Below are positions 6,213 to 27,931 of a stretch of 27,931 bases of DNA, one piece after another. The notes under the pieces were generated by a model. That model ran no database searches. It was not told the DNA's origin and worked only from the letters and a program-made list of their open reading frames with translations. The stretch lies in the IMG/VR virus record IMGVR_UViG_3300051212_000554, positions 1 through 27,931 of that record, one strand, 5' to 3'. Made by a program: the position numbers and the translations under genes. The stretch comes from a virus. How positions within the stretch are numbered: position 1 is the stretch's first letter; each line of letters opens with the position of its first letter.

Positions 6213-6574
6213 ACAAGAATATTACGACTTTCAAAGCTTAAATCTTTTTTATTAGATTTATAGCCAAGTACACTAGTTTGTACCCTATAATAATTTAAAA
6301 TTTGAGTAACAACTTGACTCATTTGTAAATCATTTAAAGATTTTAGTTTATCCAACAATTCAAAGACATTTACATTATCTAGTTTAGCTTGATTTAATAA
6401 AACTATACCAGTAGTTCTTGCTGCTTGCTCATCAAAGCCTCTACGCATGAAAAACCCAAGTACAGCATCAATTTGATTACTGGGAAAACTAATTTCGCTG
6501 CTAAAATAATTGTCAAAAAAGTTTCTAGTTTCTTTATTATCTGTTGGAATAGGTATATTAGTAATATTGCTCAT
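6209..6574 (-). CDS. Small conserved structural-cluster protein (121 aa)
   Basis: Function is not recognised, although this style of protein (a helical core with FFMRRGF, then ILNYYR and a C-terminal SVLGY...ESRNIL) is familiar from marine T4-like genomes. Residues 15-100 are predicted mainly helical, with three amphipathic helices around 35-48, 50-63 and 68-97. There is no signal peptide or membrane segment. It overlaps its neighbours on both sides by ATGA junctions (tube-like protein upstream, gp4 downstream), so the three are likely translated together. It could be a head-tail joining or baseplate assembly factor. Confidence 0.7.
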   Translation of the reverse strand: MSNITNIPIPTDNKETRNFFDNYFSSEISFPSNQIDAVLGFFMRRGFDEQAARTTGIVLLNQAKLDNVNVFELLDKLKSLNDLQMSQVVTQILNYYRVQTSVLGYKSNKKDLSFESRNILV

Positions 6575-7650
6575 CCGCCACCACCTATGTCAGTGTTATT
6601 GTTAAGATCCGATCTTGGTTGTGCTACAGTTTTTTGAGTAGTCGTAATTCCTGGAAATGTTGTACCTTTTAATCCGGTTATTGCTGAAGCTGCTACATTT
6701 AATCCAATATTTGTAGCCAAGTTACTTACTTCATTTTTTATTCCTCTTTTAGTCAAGGATTTGGCATTTTTAGCAGTATTAATTCCTGCTACTACAGCAT
6801 TTAAATAATTACCCTTACTCCACTCATTGGCCGCTGCCCCAATACCATCAAATACTCCATTTTGTCCTAATAGTGATCTAGCACCACCACCTAATGGACT
6901 TAGTGGACTAGGTAGCTTATCATAATGATCTTGAGCAAATCCTAGAACATTTCCGCTATCTACTGCTCCTATGTCATAGTGTACAGCCTCAAAATCTATG
7001 GTCATATTTACTTCAGCACCTTGACCACCATTATCACTCATATTGGCTTGATCATGACTAAAACTACTAATTAATGGATTAACCAACGTATAACTCACAT
7101 ATTCTTTTCTATTCATTTGATATAATATAATTTTATCAAAAAACGGTATGGTAGAGTTATTGTCAAAGCCATAACTATTTGAAACATTGCTCCAACTACT
7201 AGTAGCATTTCTAGCATAACTACTTGGGTCTTTTGCTGTAATGCTATCAGCATAATAGTAAGAATAATAACTTTGCCATAACATATTAGCAATATTGGCT
7301 CTATCATCGTGGAACCTAAAAGTCATAGGACCATAATCATGTGTTACTTGTATTACTTTTTTTCTATTATATTGATTTAAGGTTTGAGTTTTAATATTAA
7401 ATTTTGGAAAATCAACTTGTTTAACTAGCAGTCCTAATTCGGTTCTGTGTCTTTGATCAAGTTGAGGAAATCTTACTGTTCCTGGATTAATACTAAAATA
7501 ACAATGAAATAAAAATTTGGCTTTAGGAGCTAGTCTAAAGTAATCATCAACGTAGGTACGAGCAGCATGTTGCCAATCACCCATGTATCCTTTAGGCGTA
7601 AGAAATCCACCCGCTACACTTTTCAAAAAACTATTAAATTTTCCAGCCAT
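6571..7650 (-). CDS. Probable tail-tube-fold baseplate/tube junction protein (gp54/gp48-like)
   Basis: This 359-aa protein looks like the marine T4-like counterpart of the tube-fold proteins that cap the baseplate and start tube polymerisation (T4 gp54 is 320 aa, gp48 is 365 aa). Supporting features are the FRLAPKAKFLFHCYFSINP beta strand region near residue 40, LVKQVDFPKFNIKTQTLNQY at about 75-95, a core echoed in tube proteins, and VNMTIDFEAVHYD near 215-230 closing the sandwich. Residues 240-359 are Gly/Ala-rich and helical. The first ATG has no ribosome binding site and sits 4 bases after a perfect late promoter. An alternative ATG at codon 22 has AAAGGA three bases upstream. Which of gp48 or gp54 it represents is not decidable here. 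Confidence 0.7.
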   Translation of the reverse strand: MAGKFNSFLKSVAGGFLTPKGYMGDWQHAARTYVDDYFRLAPKAKFLFHCYFSINPGTVRFPQLDQRHRTELGLLVKQVDFPKFNIKTQTLNQYNRKKVIQVTHDYGPMTFRFHDDRANIANMLWQSYYSYYYADSITAKDPSSYARNATSSWSNVSNSYGFDNNSTIPFFDKIILYQMNRKEYVSYTLVNPLISSFSHDQANMSDNGGQGAEVNMTIDFEAVHYDIGAVDSGNVLGFAQDHYDKLPSPLSPLGGGARSLLGQNGVFDGIGAAANEWSKGNYLNAVVAGINTAKNAKSLTKRGIKNEVSNLATNIGLNVAASAITGLKGTTFPGITTTQKTVAQPRSDLNNNTDIGGGG

Positions 7651-7736: not shown

Positions 7737-8387
7737 TTACTGACCTGGGCCAGTTGCTTGACCACCGTTGCCAGCAGTAAGTGTACGCAATGTTCTTCCA
7801 ACATTGATACCAATACCTGCGTTCTCTTGTGGGATCTGAATACAGTTATCTGGCTGAATTGTAAGGTCAATTGTTTGTGGAGCTGCTTCTTGATAACTCA
7901 ATGATTGCCAGTTAGCCTGTGTAATATAGCAACCATAACATTCCCAAGTTTCAAGAACACCAGCTTCAAAACCTCCATTACCACCATCAAGTACTTCAAT
8001 TCTGAGGGTAAACTTATAGTCCATACCAGCACTAGCACTAGCTTGTTCGAAGAAGTCGAATTGCTTTTGCATTTGTTCACCAACTAGTTTACTTACATTG
8101 CCGCTTTGGTCATCACGTAGGACCACAGCAATAGTTTGCCAAGATGGTTTACCAGCATAGTTGATCTTACTATTATAAGTATGAATCTCTTGATTTTGAA
8201 ATTGTACATTAGGTTTTGCTGCTGTAGACACCTGTTTAGTAAGTTCATAAGTATCACCACCTGCCCCAAAATTAATAAATGTTAATCTAAAACGATATTT
8301 TAACTTGGGCATAAGTGTGCCTTGACTGCTGGCACTTGAACTTGTTGCTAGTGGTACTGTAAATTTGTTTAAGCTTGCGACTGCCAT
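7737..8387 (-). CDS. gp19: Tail tube protein gp19
   Basis: The major subunit of the inner tail tube through which DNA passes. The 216-aa product (T4 gp19 is 163) has the tube pattern: a short N-terminus, RFRLTFINFG (residues 32-41), the ELTKQVSTAAKPNV segment, a beta-hairpin with NYAGKPSWQTIAVVLRDD (76-93), a helix with MQKQFDFFEQA, and the closing WECYGCYITQANWQSLSYQE strand-loop. Pro/Gly-rich extensions at both ends account for the extra length. The start has CGGAG eight bases upstream. It is the second gene of a gp18-gp19 pair, has its own late promoter in the 31-base gap, and is followed by a strong terminator. Confidence 0.93.
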   Translation of the reverse strand: MAVASLNKFTVPLATSSSASSQGTLMPKLKYRFRLTFINFGAGGDTYELTKQVSTAAKPNVQFQNQEIHTYNSKINYAGKPSWQTIAVVLRDDQSGNVSKLVGEQMQKQFDFFEQASASAGMDYKFTLRIEVLDGGNGGFEAGVLETWECYGCYITQANWQSLSYQEAAPQTIDLTIQPDNCIQIPQENAGIGINVGRTLRTLTAGNGGQATGPGQ

Positions 8388-8418: not shown

Positions 8419-11400
8419 TTATAATCCTGCGATTTCACCAGTATTCTTTAATCTTAACGGAATATAAATGAATTCAACCGCTTTAACTGGTTCTATAGCA
8501 ATGTCTACATAAAGCTCATTTTTATCAATTCTAGCAGGTGTATTATTACTTTCATCACAAACTACAATGTAATCATACAAGGCTCTTTGACCTACAAGTT
8601 CCAACATCAAACTTTCACAAGCACTTCTTATTTGATCTCTTGTGATCTTATCATTAGGTTCAAAGATATAAGGTTTAGCTAGAATATCTAGTTGTCTACG
8701 CAAATAGATCACTAATCTTGCTACGTTAATACGGTCTAGAGCACTGGCTGCTTTGGCACGAGTCTTCTGACCATAATTTACTAATCCTACACCTGTAAAG
8801 AATGTTATTGGATTAATTTTTACTTCATATAATGTATCACGAGCAGCATTACTTAAAGCTACAACTACAAATTCGCCCTCTTTATCCACATAACCTACGT
8901 TAGTGGCATTTGTAATTCCACCTCTACGTGTACCTGCTGGCGCAAACCATGGATAACTTACACTATCACTTAGAGCAATTGTTCTTAACATCATATGGCT
9001 TGGTGGCACAACAACATTATTTCCAAAGTTGTCGCTAGTGAAACCCCATGGATAGAACATACCTAAATATTCGTCATAGCTGGCACCACCAAAATCATTG
9101 TCTTCAACTGCTAGACGCAGATTGTCACCCCATGCCTTCAAACTAGTTGAATCAGGTGTTAATCTTGCTGGAGTATCTCCTACTATAAATGCTGTAAGAG
9201 CACGATCAAAGTTTAGACTAATTAGTTCACCAATTAGTTCTGGATATCCTGGACATGCTAGTAAATTAAACACACGAGCTTCTTCACGAATGTCTCTTGA
9301 ACTATTTGTAACTGCTTGTAGACTTTGTACAACCACTCTACGCTGTGCCATACGACCAAAATTACCGGCACCGTTTTGTTGATTGCCACTAACAGTTACC
9401 CAACGATGAGGATAGTAGTCATCCATTAAAGGATTTTCTGGATCACCATTAATGTTAAGAACTGTTATTCTTGGATTTGTTGCATCTAAATTAATATAAT
9501 TTTGCTTAAATTCTTTTACGTTAAATCCACTACGACGCATATTCCATAACAGCATACCTTTTGGATACAGTGCTGGATCTGGAGCATCTGGGTCTAGATG
9601 ATCACTTGTTAATAGTTCAACGATTGTAGCATCACCTTCTTGACCATCTGTATTCCAACGTGCATCTGCAAATAAAACACCATCTTCGGTACTTTGATCT
9701 GTATTATCTAGTAATACCCATCTTGTAGCTATTGGTGTAGTTTTTGTAGCATCAAACCTATGAATTTTAGGATAATTTTCTAAATCACTAGTATCAATCC
9801 ATAGATCACCATCTTCAAGTTGTGAACCATCACTCTGTAGTACAGGTGGTGTAGCACCAACTAAAGGACCTAATGGATCAGTGTTAGATACACCATTAGC
9901 GTATCCTACCCAAGTATTACCGTCATGAATCATAATATCTACTTCATCAACTACACTGCTGTACCACAATGTACCATTTTTGGTCAAGCTTGTTGGAGCA
10001 TCTTTACTAGCAGTAAATCTTAGTGGTTCCCATTGACTGGCGACATAATCATATCCACTAGATCCAGGAGCTAAAAATAAAGAAGGATTTGTGGTTCCTC
10101 CAAACATAGGTGCTAGACAAGAAATAAAACCACTATCATTCATTCTAAAATCACCACCTAACTTGTGACTGATAACAACTCTATTTTTAGAATCTACACT
10201 AGCTGTAATATTAATAAATCCAGCTCTATTAATTGCTGATGCAATTAATTCAGCATCTTGATCATTGCCTAAAGTATTTGCCGTAACTGCTTTATTTGGT
10301 GAAAGATCTTTTTGACCTGCTAATGATTCTGATATATCTATTCTAATTAACCCTATTGAAAATGTACTATTACCAATAACTTTACTGGTAATAGTAGTTG
10401 ATCCAGCAGCACGTTTTCTATATATTGTAAAATTAGCACGATCTGGACTATCAAAATCCAATGATGCAAACCCTTCATCTAAATTAGTCTTTGTATAAAG
10501 AGTACCTACAGGAATATTGATACCACCTGCTCTATCAAACTTGTAAATGGCGCTGTGTCCATTCTCTAATAAAGGAGCATCCATTAATTCAAAACTATCA
10601 TTATCTTCATTATACTTTTTAACAATAAGTTTTGCTCCGCCCGTAGCCTCTGTAGTTTTAATCCATAAACTACCAGTAGGTCTTGGTTCATTATCAGCTG
10701 TTTTAAATGAGGGAACTGATGTATGTGGTTGAATGGCTAAAGCTGGTCTATAATATGTTCCTTCATCTAATCCTAAAAATGGTACAGCATCATTTGATAT
10801 TTCAAAACTATCATTATTGGCAAAAATAACAAGTCTGTTATTTCTTACACCTGCTGACACTCCATTAAAGCCTGCTGTACTGTTAATTGTGTTTGCCACT
10901 GTTAGAGCAGTTAGTGGAGTTCCAGGGGCTGGTGTTGGAAGAGTTATTGTAGTACCATCAATTGTTAGGTCCTTGCCTTTAGCTGCGTCAATATCAGCTA
11001 GAGTGCTTACTAGAACAGGCCAACTTTTATACCAATCCTCACTGCCTACTTGTACCCATTCACCAGCGGCAATACCTTGATCTGTGTTGCCTGCGCTCTT
11101 AAACCAAAGAACATCTGAATCACTATAACTTGTATCAAGATTCATTAGGCTAACAATGGCATAATCACCAACAGCACCTACACTACCTTTTGGTGTATAG
11201 TCACCAATTGAATAATCAACAACCTTTGTTGTATCACTAATAACTATAGGAGTTTTCTTAGTCCATGTTTGACCTTTACCTGTTCCCTTAGCATCCCCGT
11301 TCCATTCAAATACACCCCAACTGCTATTGGCAGTATCCAACCAATGAGTTCCATTTAGGGGATCTGCTTTTGGTGCATCTGCTTTAGGATTAAGAGCACC

Positions 11401-11751
11401 TAAATCAATGTCCGCACGTACAACGTAGGCCCTGTTACTTACACCTAAGTAACTGTATGCTGCTTGTAAACCATATTCATTTTGCTCACCAGCATGAATA
11501 GGATTATTATTGGCATCAGTCTTGAAGATTGGAATACCAAAAGTTTCTGCCAAATCTCTTTGGCTAGTTATTAAGTATGCTAGTCCAGCATTGGCTTTGA
11601 GAGTACCAGGAGCAATTCCTGTATTAGCACCGTTTGGTTTATTTTCTTGTGAAGCTACAATTATTAATGGAACTGTTGAAGGCGCAGCTGGTGTGTAAAA
11701 ACTTTCGTCTACTACGGTGACTGCTACGCCTGGTGAATTTAGTTGGGCCAT
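8419..11751 (-). CDS. gp18: Tail sheath protein gp18, greatly enlarged (1110 aa)
   Basis: The contractile sheath subunit that surrounds the tube. Residues 1-118 carry the N-terminal sheath domain (LNSPGVAVTVVDES, the FGIPIF segment and AYSYLGVSNRAYVVRA). Residues 785-1110 hold the conserved C-terminal core (LLACPGYPELI, YPWFAPAGTRRG, INPITFFTGVGLVNYGQKT and RINVARLVIYLRRQ) that makes the contacts between rings. T4 gp18 is 659 aa; here residues about 120-735 are a large surface insertion. It holds at least four copies of a W-x-D/K/S-T motif module (near 137, 363, 596 and 651) and two copies of another module (about 260-320 and 462-540). AGGAGA precedes the ATG by eight bases. gp19 follows with a 31-base gap. 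Confidence 0.95.
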   Translation of the reverse strand: MAQLNSPGVAVTVVDESFYTPAAPSTVPLIIVASQENKPNGANTGIAPGTLKANAGLAYLITSQRDLAETFGIPIFKTDANNNPIHAGEQNEYGLQAAYSYLGVSNRAYVVRADIDLGALNPKADAPKADPLNGTHWLDTANSSWGVFEWNGDAKGTGKGQTWTKKTPIVISDTTKVVDYSIGDYTPKGSVGAVGDYAIVSLMNLDTSYSDSDVLWFKSAGNTDQGIAAGEWVQVGSEDWYKSWPVLVSTLADIDAAKGKDLTIDGTTITLPTPAPGTPLTALTVANTINSTAGFNGVSAGVRNNRLVIFANNDSFEISNDAVPFLGLDEGTYYRPALAIQPHTSVPSFKTADNEPRPTGSLWIKTTEATGGAKLIVKKYNEDNDSFELMDAPLLENGHSAIYKFDRAGGINIPVGTLYTKTNLDEGFASLDFDSPDRANFTIYRKRAAGSTTITSKVIGNSTFSIGLIRIDISESLAGQKDLSPNKAVTANTLGNDQDAELIASAINRAGFINITASVDSKNRVVISHKLGGDFRMNDSGFISCLAPMFGGTTNPSLFLAPGSSGYDYVASQWEPLRFTASKDAPTSLTKNGTLWYSSVVDEVDIMIHDGNTWVGYANGVSNTDPLGPLVGATPPVLQSDGSQLEDGDLWIDTSDLENYPKIHRFDATKTTPIATRWVLLDNTDQSTEDGVLFADARWNTDGQEGDATIVELLTSDHLDPDAPDPALYPKGMLLWNMRRSGFNVKEFKQNYINLDATNPRITVLNINGDPENPLMDDYYPHRWVTVSGNQQNGAGNFGRMAQRRVVVQSLQAVTNSSRDIREEARVFNLLACPGYPELIGELISLNFDRALTAFIVGDTPARLTPDSTSLKAWGDNLRLAVEDNDFGGASYDEYLGMFYPWGFTSDNFGNNVVVPPSHMMLRTIALSDSVSYPWFAPAGTRRGGITNATNVGYVDKEGEFVVVALSNAARDTLYEVKINPITFFTGVGLVNYGQKTRAKAASALDRINVARLVIYLRRQLDILAKPYIFEPNDKITRDQIRSACESLMLELVGQRALYDYIVVCDESNNTPARIDKNELYVDIAIEPVKAVEFIYIPLRLKNTGEIAGL

Positions 11752-13369: not shown

Positions 13370-14674
13370 ATGCCCCGCATCAGCCTTTATCGTCCAGAAC
13401 GTGGAAATGATTATAAATTCATAGATCGACAGATCAGTGAAATGTTTGCTATTGGTGGTACTGATTTTTATCTGCACAAATATATTGGTGTGAACACGGC
13501 TTCGGAAAACGCTACTCCTGATCAGCCTCATTACGCTGAAACTAAGGAAACTAACATACAAGATTTGTTATTGCTGGAGAATCGTGACAGAAAATATGAC
13601 CCTAGCATTTATAAAATAAGGGGGCATTACCAAGTCCAAAATTTAGATTTTAACCTAACGCAATTTGGTTTATTCATTGATAACGACACTATATTTGCTA
13701 CAGTTCATATCAACGATTGGATTAGGACTGTGGGGCGCAAACCATTAACTGGTGATGTATTTGAATTACCTCACCTAGTAGACGAGTTTGCTCTAAATGA
13801 TTTTAATATAGCACTGCCTCGCTACTTTGTTATTGAAGATGTAAGCAGAGCCAGTGAAGGATTCAGTCAAACTTGGTGGCCACACTTATACAGATTAAAA
13901 CTTAAAAAGATTGTGGATGGTCAGGCATTTGCTGACATTTTAGATCAACCTGCTAGAGAGGGCAGTGATCAAACATTGAGAGAAATTCTTAGTACAAAAG
14001 GTCAAGAACTTAAAATTAATGATGCTATTCTTGCTCAAGCTGAAGCAGATGCTCCTATGAGTGGATATGAGACTAGACAATTTTATACCTTGGCCATTGA
14101 TGAGGAAACAGGATTACCCCTTTTAGAGACAGTGGATCAAACCACTGCTGATGCTAGTTTATTAGGATTGGATGCCAGTAGAATTAATGGTAGACCTATA
14201 AGAAGTGGCTACACTGGTCACCTTGTTGGTGATGGATTTCCTCCTAACGGACATACATTTGGACACGGTGTAAAATTTCCAGCTGAACCATACAAGGATG
14301 ATTATTTTTTAAGGACAGATTTTTTCCCTAACAGATTATTTAGATATGATGGAAATAGATGGATAAAGATGGAGGATGCTGTACGACATACTCTAACTAA
14401 TACTGATGCTAACTTTGCTATATCTAAGGGTGTGTATAGTCAAACAACTACCTACTATCAAAATGATATGGTTACTTTTGGTGGAATAGAATATATTGCT
14501 CAAATTACTACACAAGGTATGGAACCACTAGACAATCCTACAATTTGGCGTCAGGTACGTAAAACTCAAAAGACTAGCTTTATTAATAACACCAATGTTA
14601 ATACTATTGCTGGTGAACAGGTAATTGAACGTGTTAGTTTAAGTAAGGTATTGAAACCTAAGGCAGACCTATAA
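13370..14674 (+). CDS. gp14: Neck protein gp14, with C-terminal extension (434 aa)
   Basis: gp14 completes the neck with gp13. Residues 1-215 hold the recognisable core: an N-terminal helix, FIDRQISEMFAIGGTDFYLH (17-36), LTQFGLFIDNDTIFATVHIND (96-116), then a strand-rich stretch and the LREILSTKGQELKINDAILAQ helix. T4 gp14 is 256 aa; the extra part includes a DYFLRTD...LFRYDGNRWIKM module (about 298-334) like those in the fibre proteins. It also includes a segment, 353-397, whose aromatic pattern (YYQNDMVTFGGIEYIAQ) recalls CBM5/12-type binding domains. The start has no ribosome binding site and sits 4 bases after a late element. The stop overlaps the gp15 start (TAATG). Confidence 0.85.
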   Translation: MPRISLYRPERGNDYKFIDRQISEMFAIGGTDFYLHKYIGVNTASENATPDQPHYAETKETNIQDLLLLENRDRKYDPSIYKIRGHYQVQNLDFNLTQFGLFIDNDTIFATVHINDWIRTVGRKPLTGDVFELPHLVDEFALNDFNIALPRYFVIEDVSRASEGFSQTWWPHLYRLKLKKIVDGQAFADILDQPAREGSDQTLREILSTKGQELKINDAILAQAEADAPMSGYETRQFYTLAIDEETGLPLLETVDQTTADASLLGLDASRINGRPIRSGYTGHLVGDGFPPNGHTFGHGVKFPAEPYKDDYFLRTDFFPNRLFRYDGNRWIKMEDAVRHTLTNTDANFAISKGVYSQTTTYYQNDMVTFGGIEYIAQITTQGMEPLDNPTIWRQVRKTQKTSFINNTNVNTIAGEQVIERVSLSKVLKPKADL

Positions 14675-16305
14675 TGCAGTTTTATTATGATGGACAAATA
14701 AGAAGATATTTGTTACAAACTATTCGTTTGTTCAGCAATTTTGTTGTCAAATACGGTGATGGAAGATTATTCCAAGTTCCTGTAATGTACGGTGATCAGG
14801 ATAGACAAGTAGCCAATATAATAAAGCAAAACAGTGAAAATAAAATTAATGGCATGCCCCGAATAGCTGTTTATATCACTGGTTTAGAAATGGATAAGGA
14901 AAGACTAGCAGATCCTACCTTTGTTGGAAAAGTTCATGTTCGTGAACGTGCTATTGAAAATGGAGAATACACCAGTGATCAAGGATCAAACTATACAGTA
15001 GAACGTCTAATGCCTAGTCCCTATAAATTAACAGCTAAGGCAGATATATGGACTGGTAGTACTGAACAAAAACTACAAATCTTAGAACAAATTTTAATGC
15101 TGTTTAATCCTAGTTTAGAAATTCAAACTAATGATAATTTTATAGATTGGACTAGCCTTAGCGTTGTATATTTGGATGATGTAAGTTTTAGTAGTAGACA
15201 AATACCTGTTGGTACAGATTCAGCTATAGATTTAGCCAGTATAACTGTAAGTATGCCAATTTGGATTAGTCCTCCTGCTAAAATTAAAAAATTAGGGTTA
15301 GTTCAAAGTATTGCTATGAGTATGTTTACTAATATAGGTACTCCAGCAACAGGTTATATAGATGGCTTTGGTTCAGACCCAAATGAAGGGTCTAGGACTT
15401 TGTATGACACAGTACCTGTCCCTGTTAAGGTCAATGTAGCTGACTATGAAGTAGTAATTTTTGGCGGTTGTGCTAGAATATATCAACCTAATCCTAATGG
15501 AAAAATGACTAATAGTTTGGAAGATCCTGATCTATCAGGCATGACTCCAATTAATTGGCAAACTATTCTGCTCAAACATCCTAATACTTATACACCTGGT
15601 GAAAGTAAAATATTTTTACTACAACCTAATGGATCCGAAGTTGTAGGAACAATTGCTATAGATCCTTTAGATTATACTTGTTTAAAAATTAATTGGGATT
15701 CAGATTCTTATCCCAGTAACACAGATATCTCTACTAATTGGAGATCTAATAGTCCTGGTACTTTTGATGCCATAGTAGATCCAGAAACTAAAGGTCCTAA
15801 TAGTGGTTTACCCACTAGTCTAGTAGGTACAAGGTATCTTATTATAAGAAATATTGGTGGTGGTATTAGAGAAACATTGATAGCAGAAAATATAAGCAAT
15901 AGAATAGATACTACTGTTAACTACGATCTTGTTGATGATATCCAAATATTAGTTAATGATCAAAATGTAACTTTTGATTCCTTAGACATAGATGGTAAAC
16001 TAGTAATTAGACTACATAATGATGCTCAAATAGATGACATAATAACTTATATTTTAAACGTAAATCAAGATGGTCCTGATGCTTGGAAGAACTCCGATGG
16101 TAGTGATTTTATAGCAAACGCTAATGATCTTATAGAATGGGATGGTAACAGTTGGCATGTAGTTTTTGACAGCACAAGAGCAAAAGATGTTATCAAGTAT
16201 CTAACAAACATATATACAAATGTTCAATACAAATGGGATGGCATAAGCTGGACTAAGAGTTTTGAAGGACCCTATCGTAGAGGTGATTGGCGTTTAATAT
16301 TATGA
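14674..16305 (+). CDS. gp15: Tail completion and sheath stabiliser protein gp15, enlarged (543 aa)
   Basis: T4 gp15 caps the assembled tail and binds the neck. The N-terminal 210 residues match it in layout: MQFYYDGQIRRYLLQTIRLF, then VPVMYGDQDR, MPRIAVYITG, MPSPYKLTAKADIWTG, QILEQILMLFNP and VSMPIWISPPAKIKKLG (T4 has the equivalent SPIKMIYELSIFTR and EVNGWMYPP). T4 gp15 is 272 aa; residues 220-543 here are an extra beta-rich region. It ends with two W/Y-D-G-x-S-W repeats near 488-494 and 520-526 and a RRGDWRLIL tail. The extension is outside the fold known from T4 and is probably exposed at the neck. The gene overlaps gp14 by one base and the Nudix gene by ATGA. Confidence 0.88.
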   Translation: MQFYYDGQIRRYLLQTIRLFSNFVVKYGDGRLFQVPVMYGDQDRQVANIIKQNSENKINGMPRIAVYITGLEMDKERLADPTFVGKVHVRERAIENGEYTSDQGSNYTVERLMPSPYKLTAKADIWTGSTEQKLQILEQILMLFNPSLEIQTNDNFIDWTSLSVVYLDDVSFSSRQIPVGTDSAIDLASITVSMPIWISPPAKIKKLGLVQSIAMSMFTNIGTPATGYIDGFGSDPNEGSRTLYDTVPVPVKVNVADYEVVIFGGCARIYQPNPNGKMTNSLEDPDLSGMTPINWQTILLKHPNTYTPGESKIFLLQPNGSEVVGTIAIDPLDYTCLKINWDSDSYPSNTDISTNWRSNSPGTFDAIVDPETKGPNSGLPTSLVGTRYLIIRNIGGGIRETLIAENISNRIDTTVNYDLVDDIQILVNDQNVTFDSLDIDGKLVIRLHNDAQIDDIITYILNVNQDGPDAWKNSDGSDFIANANDLIEWDGNSWHVVFDSTRAKDVIKYLTNIYTNVQYKWDGISWTKSFEGPYRRGDWRLIL

Positions 16306-16736
16306 GAGAACGTATTGTTTGTAGTGGTGCATTATTTTACTCAAAAAAAACTAAACGTGTACTTTTAGTACAAAAAAGTAAAGGCAAACATGAAGGCACT
16401 TGGAGTCTAGTTGGCGGAACTAGTTTGGCTACTGAAAATCCTTGGCAAACTTTAATGCGTGAAATAGTTGAAGAAATAGGTTCAATGCCTGAAATAATTA
16501 AATCAATACCCTTAGAAACATTTGTTAGTAATGATAATGTTTTTAATTTTCATACATTTTTATGTGTAGTAGATAATGAATTTATACCTACTCTTAGCAA
16601 TGAACACAATGGATGGTCATGGACCAGTATAGATTTTATGCCTAAGCCACTACATCAAGGACTGCGTAGTAGCCTAAGCAATAGAGCAATAAAAAATAAA
16701 TTACAGACTGTATTCGACATTATGAATATCATCTAG
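16302..16736 (+). CDS. Nudix hydrolase (144 aa)
   Basis: Nudix enzymes hydrolyse nucleoside diphosphates linked to another moiety. A near-complete Nudix box is visible at residues 39-61: G39, E45, R53-E54, E57-E58 and G60 are placed exactly as in G-x5-E-x7-R-E-U-x-E-E-x-G-U, except that the last hydrophobic position is Ser. The ATG at 16302 forms ATGA with the gp15 stop, so it is chosen over a TTG at 16287 inside gp15. It is the last gene of the gp14-gp15 operon, so it is expected to be expressed late. Its 3' end overlaps the convergent glycosyltransferase-like gene by 36 bases. The substrate cannot be read from the sequence; mRNA decapping, NAD-type or oxidised-nucleotide hydrolysis are all possible. 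Confidence 0.9.
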   Translation: MRERIVCSGALFYSKKTKRVLLVQKSKGKHEGTWSLVGGTSLATENPWQTLMREIVEEIGSMPEIIKSIPLETFVSNDNVFNFHTFLCVVDNEFIPTLSNEHNGWSWTSIDFMPKPLHQGLRSSLSNRAIKNKLQTVFDIMNII

Positions 16737-18326
16737 TACTCTTGATAAACTAAACTTATTCATAACATGCACATTTATATTTTTTACCTTCATTAGAGTA
16801 TATTCGCCTCTATAATTTTCTTTTTCAATTAGGAATTTCATAGAGTCATTATATTCTAATAATAAATCTCTATCAGTTGTATAATATAGTTTTCCTGGTA
16901 AACTATAGGCCCAATCACCATTTTGATAACCATTCATAACATGAATACCAATACTGAAAGCATAGTCATTTCTATATAAACTATGCTCAATTTGATATAT
17001 GTGTCTATAATAATTCCAGTTTTCTTGTATATGACCTAAGTAATTAAAAAATACTTCTGTATTAGAATTTTTCTTAAAAAAGAACACAGTAGCCCAATAA
17101 AAATCTATGCCCTTATCACTTACTGTTTTTAATCTAGGATCGTTTCTATACCCAGTTAGGTCAACAGCATCCTTAAAAATTAAAAAGTCATGCGGTTGTT
17201 CCCAACAATATTTTAGTACATCATTGTTTATTAAGTAATCACAATCTAAGACTAAAGTTTCATCATATGGACTAATTTCAAAGCTTTTTATTCTAATATC
17301 ATTTTTAAATTTTAGTCTTTTATATATCAATGATCCGTCAAAATATCGTCTATATTGTATACTAGAATCATAAATTAAAAATCGTTCCTTAGTATCTTCC
17401 CATAAATCAAATCTAATTTCATCACTTGAATAAGAGCAATTTTCTTTACTCAACCAAAGAACTCTATTATGGAGCAAAATTGTTCCTTTTAAAAATTTAT
17501 CTGTGGTGGATAAATCAAAAACATTTTCAAGTAGCAAATCATAATTTACAAAACTGAATTCGTCTTGTTCTTGATAATCATTATTACATCTATAAAGAGT
17601 ATTTTTGTACCATACATGTTGCCCTTTTAAATATGGTAAATTAGGATACCATTTATCTATATCAATACCTTGGTAAACTCTTTCTAAACTACTAGTATCA
17701 TAAATATTAGTTATAGTATGATTGTTTATATTACTTAACCAAAGAACTCTGTCTTTAAGTACAATATCACCTTTGTTTAATTTTGTATTTTCATTTAATT
17801 CTTTTACATTTTCAAGTACAATACTATATCTTTCCTTACTAAAATTATCATTTTCAGTATAGCCTACATCACAACGATACAGTATATTTTCATACCAAAC
17901 ATGTTGTCCTTTTAGGTAGGGTAAATTTGGATACCATTTATCAATGTCTATACCTTCATATATTCTATCAAAATCTTCAGGCGTATAATTATAATCTATA
18001 GATACTTCTTCATTGACTACACTGACAAATTCTGGGCCTTCATTTACCTTACGCCATATAGTTCCATTATAATAAACTAGACTACCTACAGGATATGTAG
18101 CAGAACTGTGCCATTTTTCAATACCAGATTCATAGGCCAGTCTTATAACAAAATCAAAATAGTCCTGCCAATCTGGATATTGTTGATACAACCAATCAGC
18201 ACTATCTGTAACTAAAGTAGACTTAACATTTAGATATTTTTTTACATTTTTTGCTACATTTACAGCTAATTTTACATAGTCTATTTGCTCATTGTTTAGT
18301 GCATATAGCAGTACACCTTTACTCAT
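16701..18326 (-). CDS. Glycosyltransferase-like protein with nested repeat modules (541 aa)
   Basis: Residues 1-66 (KGVLLYALNNEQIDYVKLAV, then STLVTDSADWL) look like the Rossmann-like start of a GT-A glycosyltransferase. The fold seems to resume at about 320 with YRRYFDGSLIYKRLKFKND, then SPYDETLVLDCDYLINND, where D361-C-D363 is a plausible metal-binding DxD. Between them, residues about 71-300 are an insertion of three modules: 71-107, 122-200 and 217-294. The last two are near copies (both with IDIDKWYPNLPYLKGQHVWY, 95 residues apart). Each has the spaced W...Y..G..V.Y...LY pattern of chitin-binding-type (CBM5/12-like) domains. The start overlaps the upstream 115-aa gene by ATGA. The sugar donor and acceptor are unknown; virion, LPS or DNA glycosylation are possibilities. 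Confidence 0.6.
   Translation of the reverse strand: MSKGVLLYALNNEQIDYVKLAVNVAKNVKKYLNVKSTLVTDSADWLYQQYPDWQDYFDFVIRLAYESGIEKWHSSATYPVGSLVYYNGTIWRKVNEGPEFVSVVNEEVSIDYNYTPEDFDRIYEGIDIDKWYPNLPYLKGQHVWYENILYRCDVGYTENDNFSKERYSIVLENVKELNENTKLNKGDIVLKDRVLWLSNINNHTITNIYDTSSLERVYQGIDIDKWYPNLPYLKGQHVWYKNTLYRCNNDYQEQDEFSFVNYDLLLENVFDLSTTDKFLKGTILLHNRVLWLSKENCSYSSDEIRFDLWEDTKERFLIYDSSIQYRRYFDGSLIYKRLKFKNDIRIKSFEISPYDETLVLDCDYLINNDVLKYCWEQPHDFLIFKDAVDLTGYRNDPRLKTVSDKGIDFYWATVFFFKKNSNTEVFFNYLGHIQENWNYYRHIYQIEHSLYRNDYAFSIGIHVMNGYQNGDWAYSLPGKLYYTTDRDLLLEYNDSMKFLIEKENYRGEYTLMKVKNINVHVMNKFSLSRVLDDIHNVEYSL
17445..18116 (-). repeat. Tandem module repeats inside the glycosyltransferase-like gene
   Basis: Module 1 lies at about 18116-18006, module 2 at 17963-17727 and module 3 at 17678-17445. 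Modules 2 and 3 are offset by 285 bases and share long near-identical stretches at DNA as well as protein level, for example the strands encoding KWYPNLPYLKGQHVWY. This points to a fairly recent in-frame duplication. Confidence 0.8.
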
Positions 18327-26902: not shown

Positions 26903-27931
26903 TTACCTTCTAATCCTCTGTCTAGGAAATAATCTACCACTAGTTGGTCTAGGTTTATAGTTCAACTTGGGCCAAGTAGATCCAGTATCTGGACGTTCCT
27001 TGTAGTAAAATAAGTATCTGTTAGCACTACCTTGTAGGCTAAAATAATCATTGTAGCTGCCATTAGTGTCTGTTATCTGCCCATATTTACTGTATTTTAT
27101 CAAATAATCTCTTATTTGACTTTGATTAAAATTAGGATATACTTCTAGTACACAGGCTAGTAGTCCACATACTTGAGGACTGGCCATACTGGTTCCATTA
27201 TATTTGCTAATCCAATATGTTGTGCCTTGACTGCGTGGATCACCTACTCCACCACTTAGAACACTGCTAATTATACTACGTCCTGGAGCGTAAATATCTA
27301 TCCTTGGGCCACAATTACTAAAATCTGCCTTGGCTTCGTTGACGCTGCGACCTATAGCACCTACACAAATGCTATCATTGCCAACATTAGGAGCCATTCC
27401 TTGGTGATAAAATATAGTATTTCCATTCCAAATAAAGTAATTGTTATAATCTAGTCCACCCTCTACATCAATTTTATAACTTTCGTTGCCCGCAGCCCCT
27501 ACCATAATTATACCATCATCTATAGCCAATTGTACGTCATCTTCAATAGCTTGATATCTTGCTGGAGCATAGGCATATACTCCATCATTTATAACCCCTA
27601 AACTTTCTAAAAATGCACTAGATAATCCTGAATTATAATTAACACCTCTAACATTTACTTGTGTAATGTAAGTTATATCTAAACTATATCCATATCCCCA
27701 ACTATTATTACAGATTGTAGGATTTCTGCGCCCTGTTTGAGGATTTATAGGTTTACTGTTGTGCCAAGCTCTAATATAATCAAATAATGTAAGTACATCC
27801 AGTCCATTTGGATCTGTGGAATAAGGATGTAAATTATAGACATTAGCACTTCTTGCCCATCCTTGTGTATTTCCCGCAGCAGTTCCAGCCACATGCATGC
27901 CATGATTATTGTCACCGTTGGCTGTTAAGGG
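26903..27931 (-). CDS. Subtilisin-like serine protease (S8 family), 5' end cut by window
   Basis: The frame is open to the right edge; 342 residues are visible. The catalytic His is in NNHGMHVAGTAAG (codon at 27904-27902), the oxyanion-hole Asn in IIMVGAAGNES, and the catalytic Ser in YNGTSMASPQVCG, all with S8 family spacing. The catalytic Asp motif must lie beyond the edge. The last 45 residues (RPDTGSTWPKLNYKPRPTSG, then RLFPRQRIRR) are a basic Pro/Arg-rich tail after the protease domain, possibly an anchor to the virion. The gene lies upstream of the fibre genes on the same strand, and the next gene has its own late promoter. A role in tail maturation or in degrading host surface proteins is inference. 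The ATG of HGMH is internal, not the start. Confidence 0.88.
   Translation of the reverse strand, partial: PLTANGDNNHGMHVAGTAAGNTQGWARSANVYNLHPYSTDPNGLDVLTLFDYIRAWHNSKPINPQTGRRNPTICNNSWGYGYSLDITYITQVNVRGVNYNSGLSSAFLESLGVINDGVYAYAPARYQAIEDDVQLAIDDGIIMVGAAGNESYKIDVEGGLDYNNYFIWNGNTIFYHQGMAPNVGNDSICVGAIGRSVNEAKADFSNCGPRIDIYAPGRSIISSVLSGGVGDPRSQGTTYWISKYNGTSMASPQVCGLLACVLEVYPNFNQSQIRDYLIKYSKYGQITDTNGSYNDYFSLQGSANRYLFYYKERPDTGSTWPKLNYKPRPTSGRLFPRQRIRR

Follow-up and report, generated by a model that had tools for sequence, protein, structure and literature searches.

The window analyzed here, 27,931 bases of an IMG/VR virus record, encodes a T4-type contractile tail sheath protein (ORF 8419-11751), in which the conserved N- and C-terminal parts of the core are separated by a large insert. 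The insert consists mainly of W-type modules, which are likely related to modules of tail fibers, and of two modules that resemble the Flagellin IN motif. We put the probability that this anatomy is right, and that the insert lies on the exterior of the sheath, at roughly 0.75. The window sheath is a well-resolved example of a large-sheath class that has already been described, not a new kind of machine; what is new is the flagellin-like identity of inserts and the differing positions that they take among relatives. Jumbo-phage sheaths of this group, which is abundant in the environment, carry large inserts that these results would link to known kinds of domain, tail-fiber-type W and flagellin-IN-like. 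If confirmed, the flagellum and the phage tail, two unrelated helical tubes, share a type of outer domain, and surface binding by jumbo-phage tails becomes a question about modules of about 100 residues, each of which can be expressed in isolation. In the literature searched, which excludes most subscription journals, we found no published report of a domain shared by sheath and flagellin; a 2022 survey drew a parallel between the two solely at the level of architecture, in that both chain ends contribute to the core (PMC9230969).

A T4-type sheath protein with a large insert

The ORF is complete, running from an ATG to a stop codon (1110 aa). It matched the tail sheath family phrog_10581 across residues 1-1105 (E = 3e-235) as well as phrog_23 (E = 4e-51), residues 1003-1099 matched Pfam Phage_sheath_1C (59.2 bits, compared to a curated cut-off of 26.9), and a PDB search returned T4 gp18 at residues 883-1099 (E = 1.4e-25). 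The conserved core fold that is built from both termini is present in a full-length AlphaFold2 model (pTM 0.66, with several C-terminal core blocks low, at pLDDT 32-56). Residues 22-1089 of this model superposed on T4-like, pyocin and PVC sheaths with Z scores of 15-18, and residues 24-1089 gave Z scores of 18.6 with the T4-like KP1 sheath, 17.8 with pyocin R2 and 16.6-17.2 with T4 gp18. Mass spectrometry has detected homologues of this sheath in virions of phAPEC6 (97 kDa, 68% coverage; PMC7247149) and of PA5oct.

The window carries T4-type structural genes: those for the large terminase, for head completion and the neck, for the sheath and its gp15-like terminator, for two tail-tube-like proteins and for several fiber-type proteins, along with a deoxynucleotide kinase gene. 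The sheath gene adjoins a tail tube gene (Table 1) in a morphogenesis cluster, with the terminator, neck and terminase genes also in the window. The second tail-tube-like protein (359 aa, 6571-7650, minus strand) matched phrog_4542, as did the one that adjoins the sheath gene; two tail-tube proteins are annotated in Phosso too. The sheath terminator, at 543 aa compared to 441 for its PHROG, is enlarged, like the sheath that it would cap, and it carries W-rich repeats (WDGNSWH, WDGISWTK) near its C terminus.

The borders of the insert came from alignment to the shorter sheaths of XacN1 and CM1 (714-715 aa). In this alignment the core resumes at about residue 795-803, and we therefore place the insert at about residues 119-797, such that its approximately 679 residues make up the middle two-thirds of the protein. 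Thus, an earlier note on this DNA was right that an insert lies between conserved N- and C-terminal sheath domains, but the extent that it gave (residues 120-735, positions 9547-11394) falls short. The last part of the insert is a conserved junction back to the core. The profile made from it (profile X) picked out most of the large relatives, whereas RaK2, XacN1, CM1 and T4 gave no match.

In the model, extra beta-rich domains run through the insert (pLDDT about 90). They lie outside the core; folding into the conserved T4 sheath domains, which the earlier note had named as the outcome that would refute its reading, is not what the model shows. Type 3 multi-domain sheaths have at least three domains, with the extra ones between the N- and C-terminal parts of the core; the beta-rich elements, with their W-type and IN-like modules, place the window sheath in this class.

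T4 gp18 has an exterior insert of its own at the matching site, 258 residues long (88-345), which forms domain II (88-97 and 189-345) and domain I (98-188) (PMC3004832); the T4 sheath domains range from I, the most exposed, to IV, the most buried (PMC3004832; PMC8570332). Thus, the net excess of the window sheath is only about 450 residues, and its insert replaces an exterior insert rather than being added to a bare core. The two proteins have the core fold and the insertion site in common, but the T4 insert was recognized by none of the window module profiles, and profile alignment of T4 gp18 through the insert yielded no reliable alignment.

Table 1. Parts of the tail sheath protein and nearby tail genes in the window
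Feature	Positions	Strand	Basis
Tail sheath protein (gp18-like)	8419..11751	-	1110 aa; PHROGs, Pfam and PDB matches
N-terminal part of sheath core, residues 1-118	11398..11751	-	Aligned via XacN1 and CM1 sheaths
W-type module W1 (GTHWLDT), residues 119-180	11212..11397	-	Invariant W137, D139; W1-W3 match
Linker or weak W-like hairpin M1, residues 181-240	11032..11211	-	M1-W3 profile match
Flagellin-IN-like module I1, residues 241-340	10732..11031	-	Flagellin_IN matches; Vibrio flagellin FlaA superposition
W-type module W2 (GSLWIKT), residues 341-397	10561..10731	-	Invariant W363, K365, T367
Weak W-like hairpin G1 (GTLYTKT), residues 398-449	10405..10560	-	Motif match; G1-W4
Flagellin-IN-like module I2, residues 450-572	10036..10404	-	Flagellin_IN matches; repeat of I1
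W-type module W3 (GTLWYSS), residues 573-625	9877..10035	-	Invariant W596, Y597, S599, D602
W-type module W4 (GDLWIDT), residues 626-690	9682..9876	-	Invariant D649, W651
Conserved junction back to core, residues 691-797 (DPDAPDPALYPKGMLLWN)	9361..9681	-	Profile X; identity 0.66
C-terminal part of sheath core, residues 798-1110 and stop	8419..9360	-	Phage_sheath_1C and T4 gp18 matches
Tail tube protein adjoining sheath gene	7737..8387	-	216 aa; phrog_4542 (E = 3e-57)
gp15-like sheath terminator	14674..16305	+	phrog_11196 (E = 5e-71); phrog_227 sheath stabilizer (E = 1e-20)

W-type and flagellin-IN-like modules

Along the insert, the modules follow the order W, (w), I, W, (w), I, W, W. The earlier note had proposed W-type modules near residues 137, 363, 596 and 651, and indeed each of these four tryptophans is invariant in an alignment of 64 sequences. 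We compared the module profiles with each other and with 60 column shuffles. No shuffle was as good as the real match for W1-W3 (probability 84.8), W2-W4 (62.6) or the weak hairpin G1 with W4 (25.3), and one of 60 was as good for M1-W3 (20.7), so that the W-like nature of M1 is suggestive only; the W1-W2, W2-W3 and W3-W4 comparisons fell within the shuffle null. The note had described the modules as alternating; strict alternation of two types was rejected, since M1 and G1 are two further weak W-like hairpins that break it and the likeness within several W pairs is not significant. An apparent likeness of G1 to I2 and of W3 to W4 was due to overlapping segment borders and was gone with non-overlapping cuts.

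Several observations connect the W-type modules to tail fibers. The sheath has five copies of the motif G-x-hydrophobic-W/Y-x-D/N/K/S-T/S and three window fiber proteins have two each, for a total of 11 compared to 2.45 expected across all window proteins. With a profile of all W-type modules, two of these fiber proteins scored 14.4 and 12.0 bits, above the shuffled maximum of 9.4, whereas the third scored 8.7 bits, below it. The model of residues 570-795 resembles tail-fiber modules among the predicted viral proteins of BFVD, several of them at an rmsd of about 2 A over 55-65 columns (E = 0.01-0.5), but its resemblance to solved tailspikes is weak (Z = 3.6), and the W3-W4 profile found no relative in the PDB. 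Since the third fiber protein scored below the shuffled maximum and solved tailspikes are only weakly alike, we consider a relation between the W-type modules and fiber modules likely, but not proved.

The second module type, which the earlier note had placed at about residues 260-320 and 462-540, proved to be a repeat: I1 and I2 matched each other with a profile probability of 94.9 (E = 4e-8), and with one of 89.0 in the shuffle-controlled comparison, in which none of 60 shuffles was as good. Pfam Flagellin_IN (PF07196) was matched by 15 of 40 homologous I1 segments at a reporting limit of 0.01 (best 6.6e-6) and by 18 of 40 homologous I2 segments at a limit of 0.1 (best 1.6e-5), while any other Pfam family was matched by at most two of the 40 I1 or I2 segments. 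The predicted folds agree, with both modules superposing on the flagellin outer domain: model I1 (residues 241-336) superposed on Vibrio flagellin FlaA with a Z score of 8.8 (85 aligned residues, 2.5 A), as did model I2 (residues 450-572) on Vibrio flagellin with a Z score of 8.4 (96 aligned, 2.8 A). Flagellins were also the top matches of the I1 profile in the PDB, although the I2-only profile found no flagellin there.

The window I1 itself scored 13.1 bits against Flagellin_IN, below the cut-off of 22.7, and the window I2 alone had no Pfam match; therefore, we call these modules flagellin-IN-like rather than members of Flagellin_IN. In flagellins and hook-associated proteins, the Flagellin IN motif forms an outer domain. 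I1 and I2 are like it in sequence profile and predicted fold, but differ in that they are placed in a phage sheath, among W-type modules, and score under the curated cut-off. In a PHROG scan of the I modules, the sole strong match was the sheath family itself, and a tblastn search of phage records with a composite I1 consensus gave no matches, perhaps because these were filtered or too diverged. We also considered an Ig-like identity for the insert modules, as in phage decoration domains, which had no Pfam support: single insert segments had no match to Ig families at E up to 10, although searches with such short segments are weak.

Distribution and divergence of the modules among related sheaths

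At least 593 relatives of this sheath were found in viral contigs, and 72 complete environmental homologues range from 1066 to 1157 aa (median 1102). The nearest sequenced phages are Sinorhizobium phage Phosso (1091 aa), Agrobacterium phage Atu_ph07 (1086), PA5oct (879), Salicola SCTP-2 (955), Vibrio 2.275.O (990), GAP32 (883), RaK2 (888), 121Q (887), and XacN1 and CM1. The T4 sheath has 659 aa, and one viral sheath among the BFVD predictions reaches 1141 aa. Thus, the sheath is giant, as the earlier note had called it, in a relative sense only, and the idea of a record size was dropped, given the lengths of the BFVD sheath and of the longest environmental relatives.

The Atu_ph07 and Phosso sheaths have the core, the W series, IN-like modules and the length class in common with the window sheath (best-segment identity about 50%), but the IN-like modules are not at the same junctions. 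All three have one at the I1 place; Atu_ph07 and Phosso have another between W1 and M1, where the window sheath has none, and lack I2, which in the window sheath occupies the G1-W3 junction. In the 2022 survey, the Atu_ph07 sheath was modeled as a type 3 sheath with five or more domains (Evseev et al.; PMC9230969). The Rak2-like sheaths (RaK2, 121Q, GAP32) and that of PA5oct have the window-type core with W1, W2, W3 and W4 recognizable, but, unlike the window sheath, no I1; in PA5oct (0.037) and GAP32 (0.0095), the I2 place holds no more than a diverged IN-like stretch, and RaK2 and 121Q have no IN-like module by these profiles. The XacN1 and CM1 sheaths have no W-type modules by profile and a single weak match. 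As judged by these profiles, the W series is kept between phage groups, with IN-like modules at differing junctions.

Conservation varied with the type of region. Median identity of relatives to the window sheath was 0.76 in the N-terminal and 0.78 in the C-terminal part of the core, 0.49-0.60 in the W-type modules and 0.32-0.41 in the I modules, whose length was also the most variable. In eight close pairs, dN/dS was below 1 in every region, with a tendency to rise in the I modules (in one pair, up to about 0.46, compared to about 0.04 in the core). One close pair (L025/L036) had an I-module dN of 0.21 compared to 0.009 in the C-terminal core, as might result from a local replacement of the I module.

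These patterns bear on whether the insert has a function at all. It might be a mosaic accretion that the outside of the sheath can bear, under selection only to leave the core undisturbed, as the varying number and place of the IN-like modules among relatives and their low conservation would allow. We consider this improbable, given that the layout is kept in the aligned environmental sheaths, with the four tryptophans invariant in 64 of 64, and that no module reaches a dN/dS of 1.

Placement of the insert and its possible roles

The earlier note had envisaged an exterior coat on every sheath ring that would greatly thicken the tail. The extra beta-rich domains do occur at the site of T4 domains I and II. 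Since these are the outermost T4 domains, we expect the insert to face outward on every ring, although this placement is inferred from the T4 insertion site; no assembled structure of any close relative was found. The thickening is another matter. The T4 sheath is 24 nm in diameter. Starting from a sheath of this assumed size and adding the mass of the 451 residues by which each window subunit exceeds that of T4, we obtained a predicted diameter of 27-30 nm for the window sheath. The mass-based estimate for CBB, with a sheath of about 880 aa, was 25.6-27.4 nm, and its measured diameter is 27.1 +/- 1.8 nm (PMC5259590); that of the phage G sheath is 240 A (PMC8570332). From our estimate and the CBB measurement, we expect the thickening of the tail to be modest rather than great.

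We propose that the source phage is a jumbo phage of the T4-like kind, with Atu_ph07 and the Rak2-like phages as its allies. Residues 1-118 and about 798-1110 of its sheath make up the core, which would surround the tube and power contraction, while the insert would form an outward, beta-rich multidomain arm in place of T4 domains I and II. The conserved part of the arm would be the series of tail-fiber-type W modules, and the two flagellin-IN-like domains between them would be its fastest-evolving, and presumably most exposed, knobs. Such an arm on each subunit would add both lateral contacts and exposed surface. Its main job may be to pack against neighboring subunits, stiffening or protecting the tail of a large virion, a role to which we give slightly under even odds; weak binding to cell-surface polymers seems a less probable second or alternative benefit. 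Stiffening and adhesion are not separable by sequence data.

If adhesion were the chief role, the modules would mainly attach to glycans or flagella of the host, and the tail would stick by its side ahead of baseplate docking. Evseev et al. proposed that extra sheath domains are positioned away from the tube and could aid stability or adhesion (PMC9230969), and both the resemblance of the W-type modules to tail-fiber modules and the rapid diversification of the I modules are consistent with a binding surface. However, fast change fits relaxed constraint too, every dN/dS is below 1, and dedicated fiber proteins are already encoded in the window; we consider this role unlikely. We also consider it unlikely that the IN-like modules and flagellins are of common descent, with the modules exchangeable between junctions of the insert, and give the tail a flagellin-like outer coat for attachment to flagella or cell-surface polymers or for imitation of the filament of the host.

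The modules might instead anchor the hair-like whiskers of Rak2-like phage tails. Whiskers emerge from the sheath surface in CBB (PMC5259590) and phAPEC6 (PMC7247149), a group that carries sheaths of the same family as the window sheath, and W-type modules recur in the window fiber proteins. In phAPEC6, however, the whiskers occupy only three annular positions along 25 rings (PMC7247149), while inserts are on every subunit, and Atu_ph07, with a larger insert, has whiskers mainly on its capsid (PMC6102473). Thus, whisker anchoring alone cannot explain inserts on all rings, and we give it little credence compared to the packing of an outward arm against its neighbors.

Three further ORFs of the window were noted. 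Beside the fiber genes lies a fragment of a subtilisin-like protease (26903-27898, minus strand), with HVAGT and GTSMASP motifs and matches to phrog_9158 and phrog_3677, the start of which is apparently past the end of the window. A 541-aa protein without a PHROG match (16701-18326, minus strand) contains IDIDKWYPNLPYLKGQHVWY twice. Finally, an ORF with a Nudix-like hydrolase motif (16287-16736, plus strand) overlaps the end of the terminator gene.
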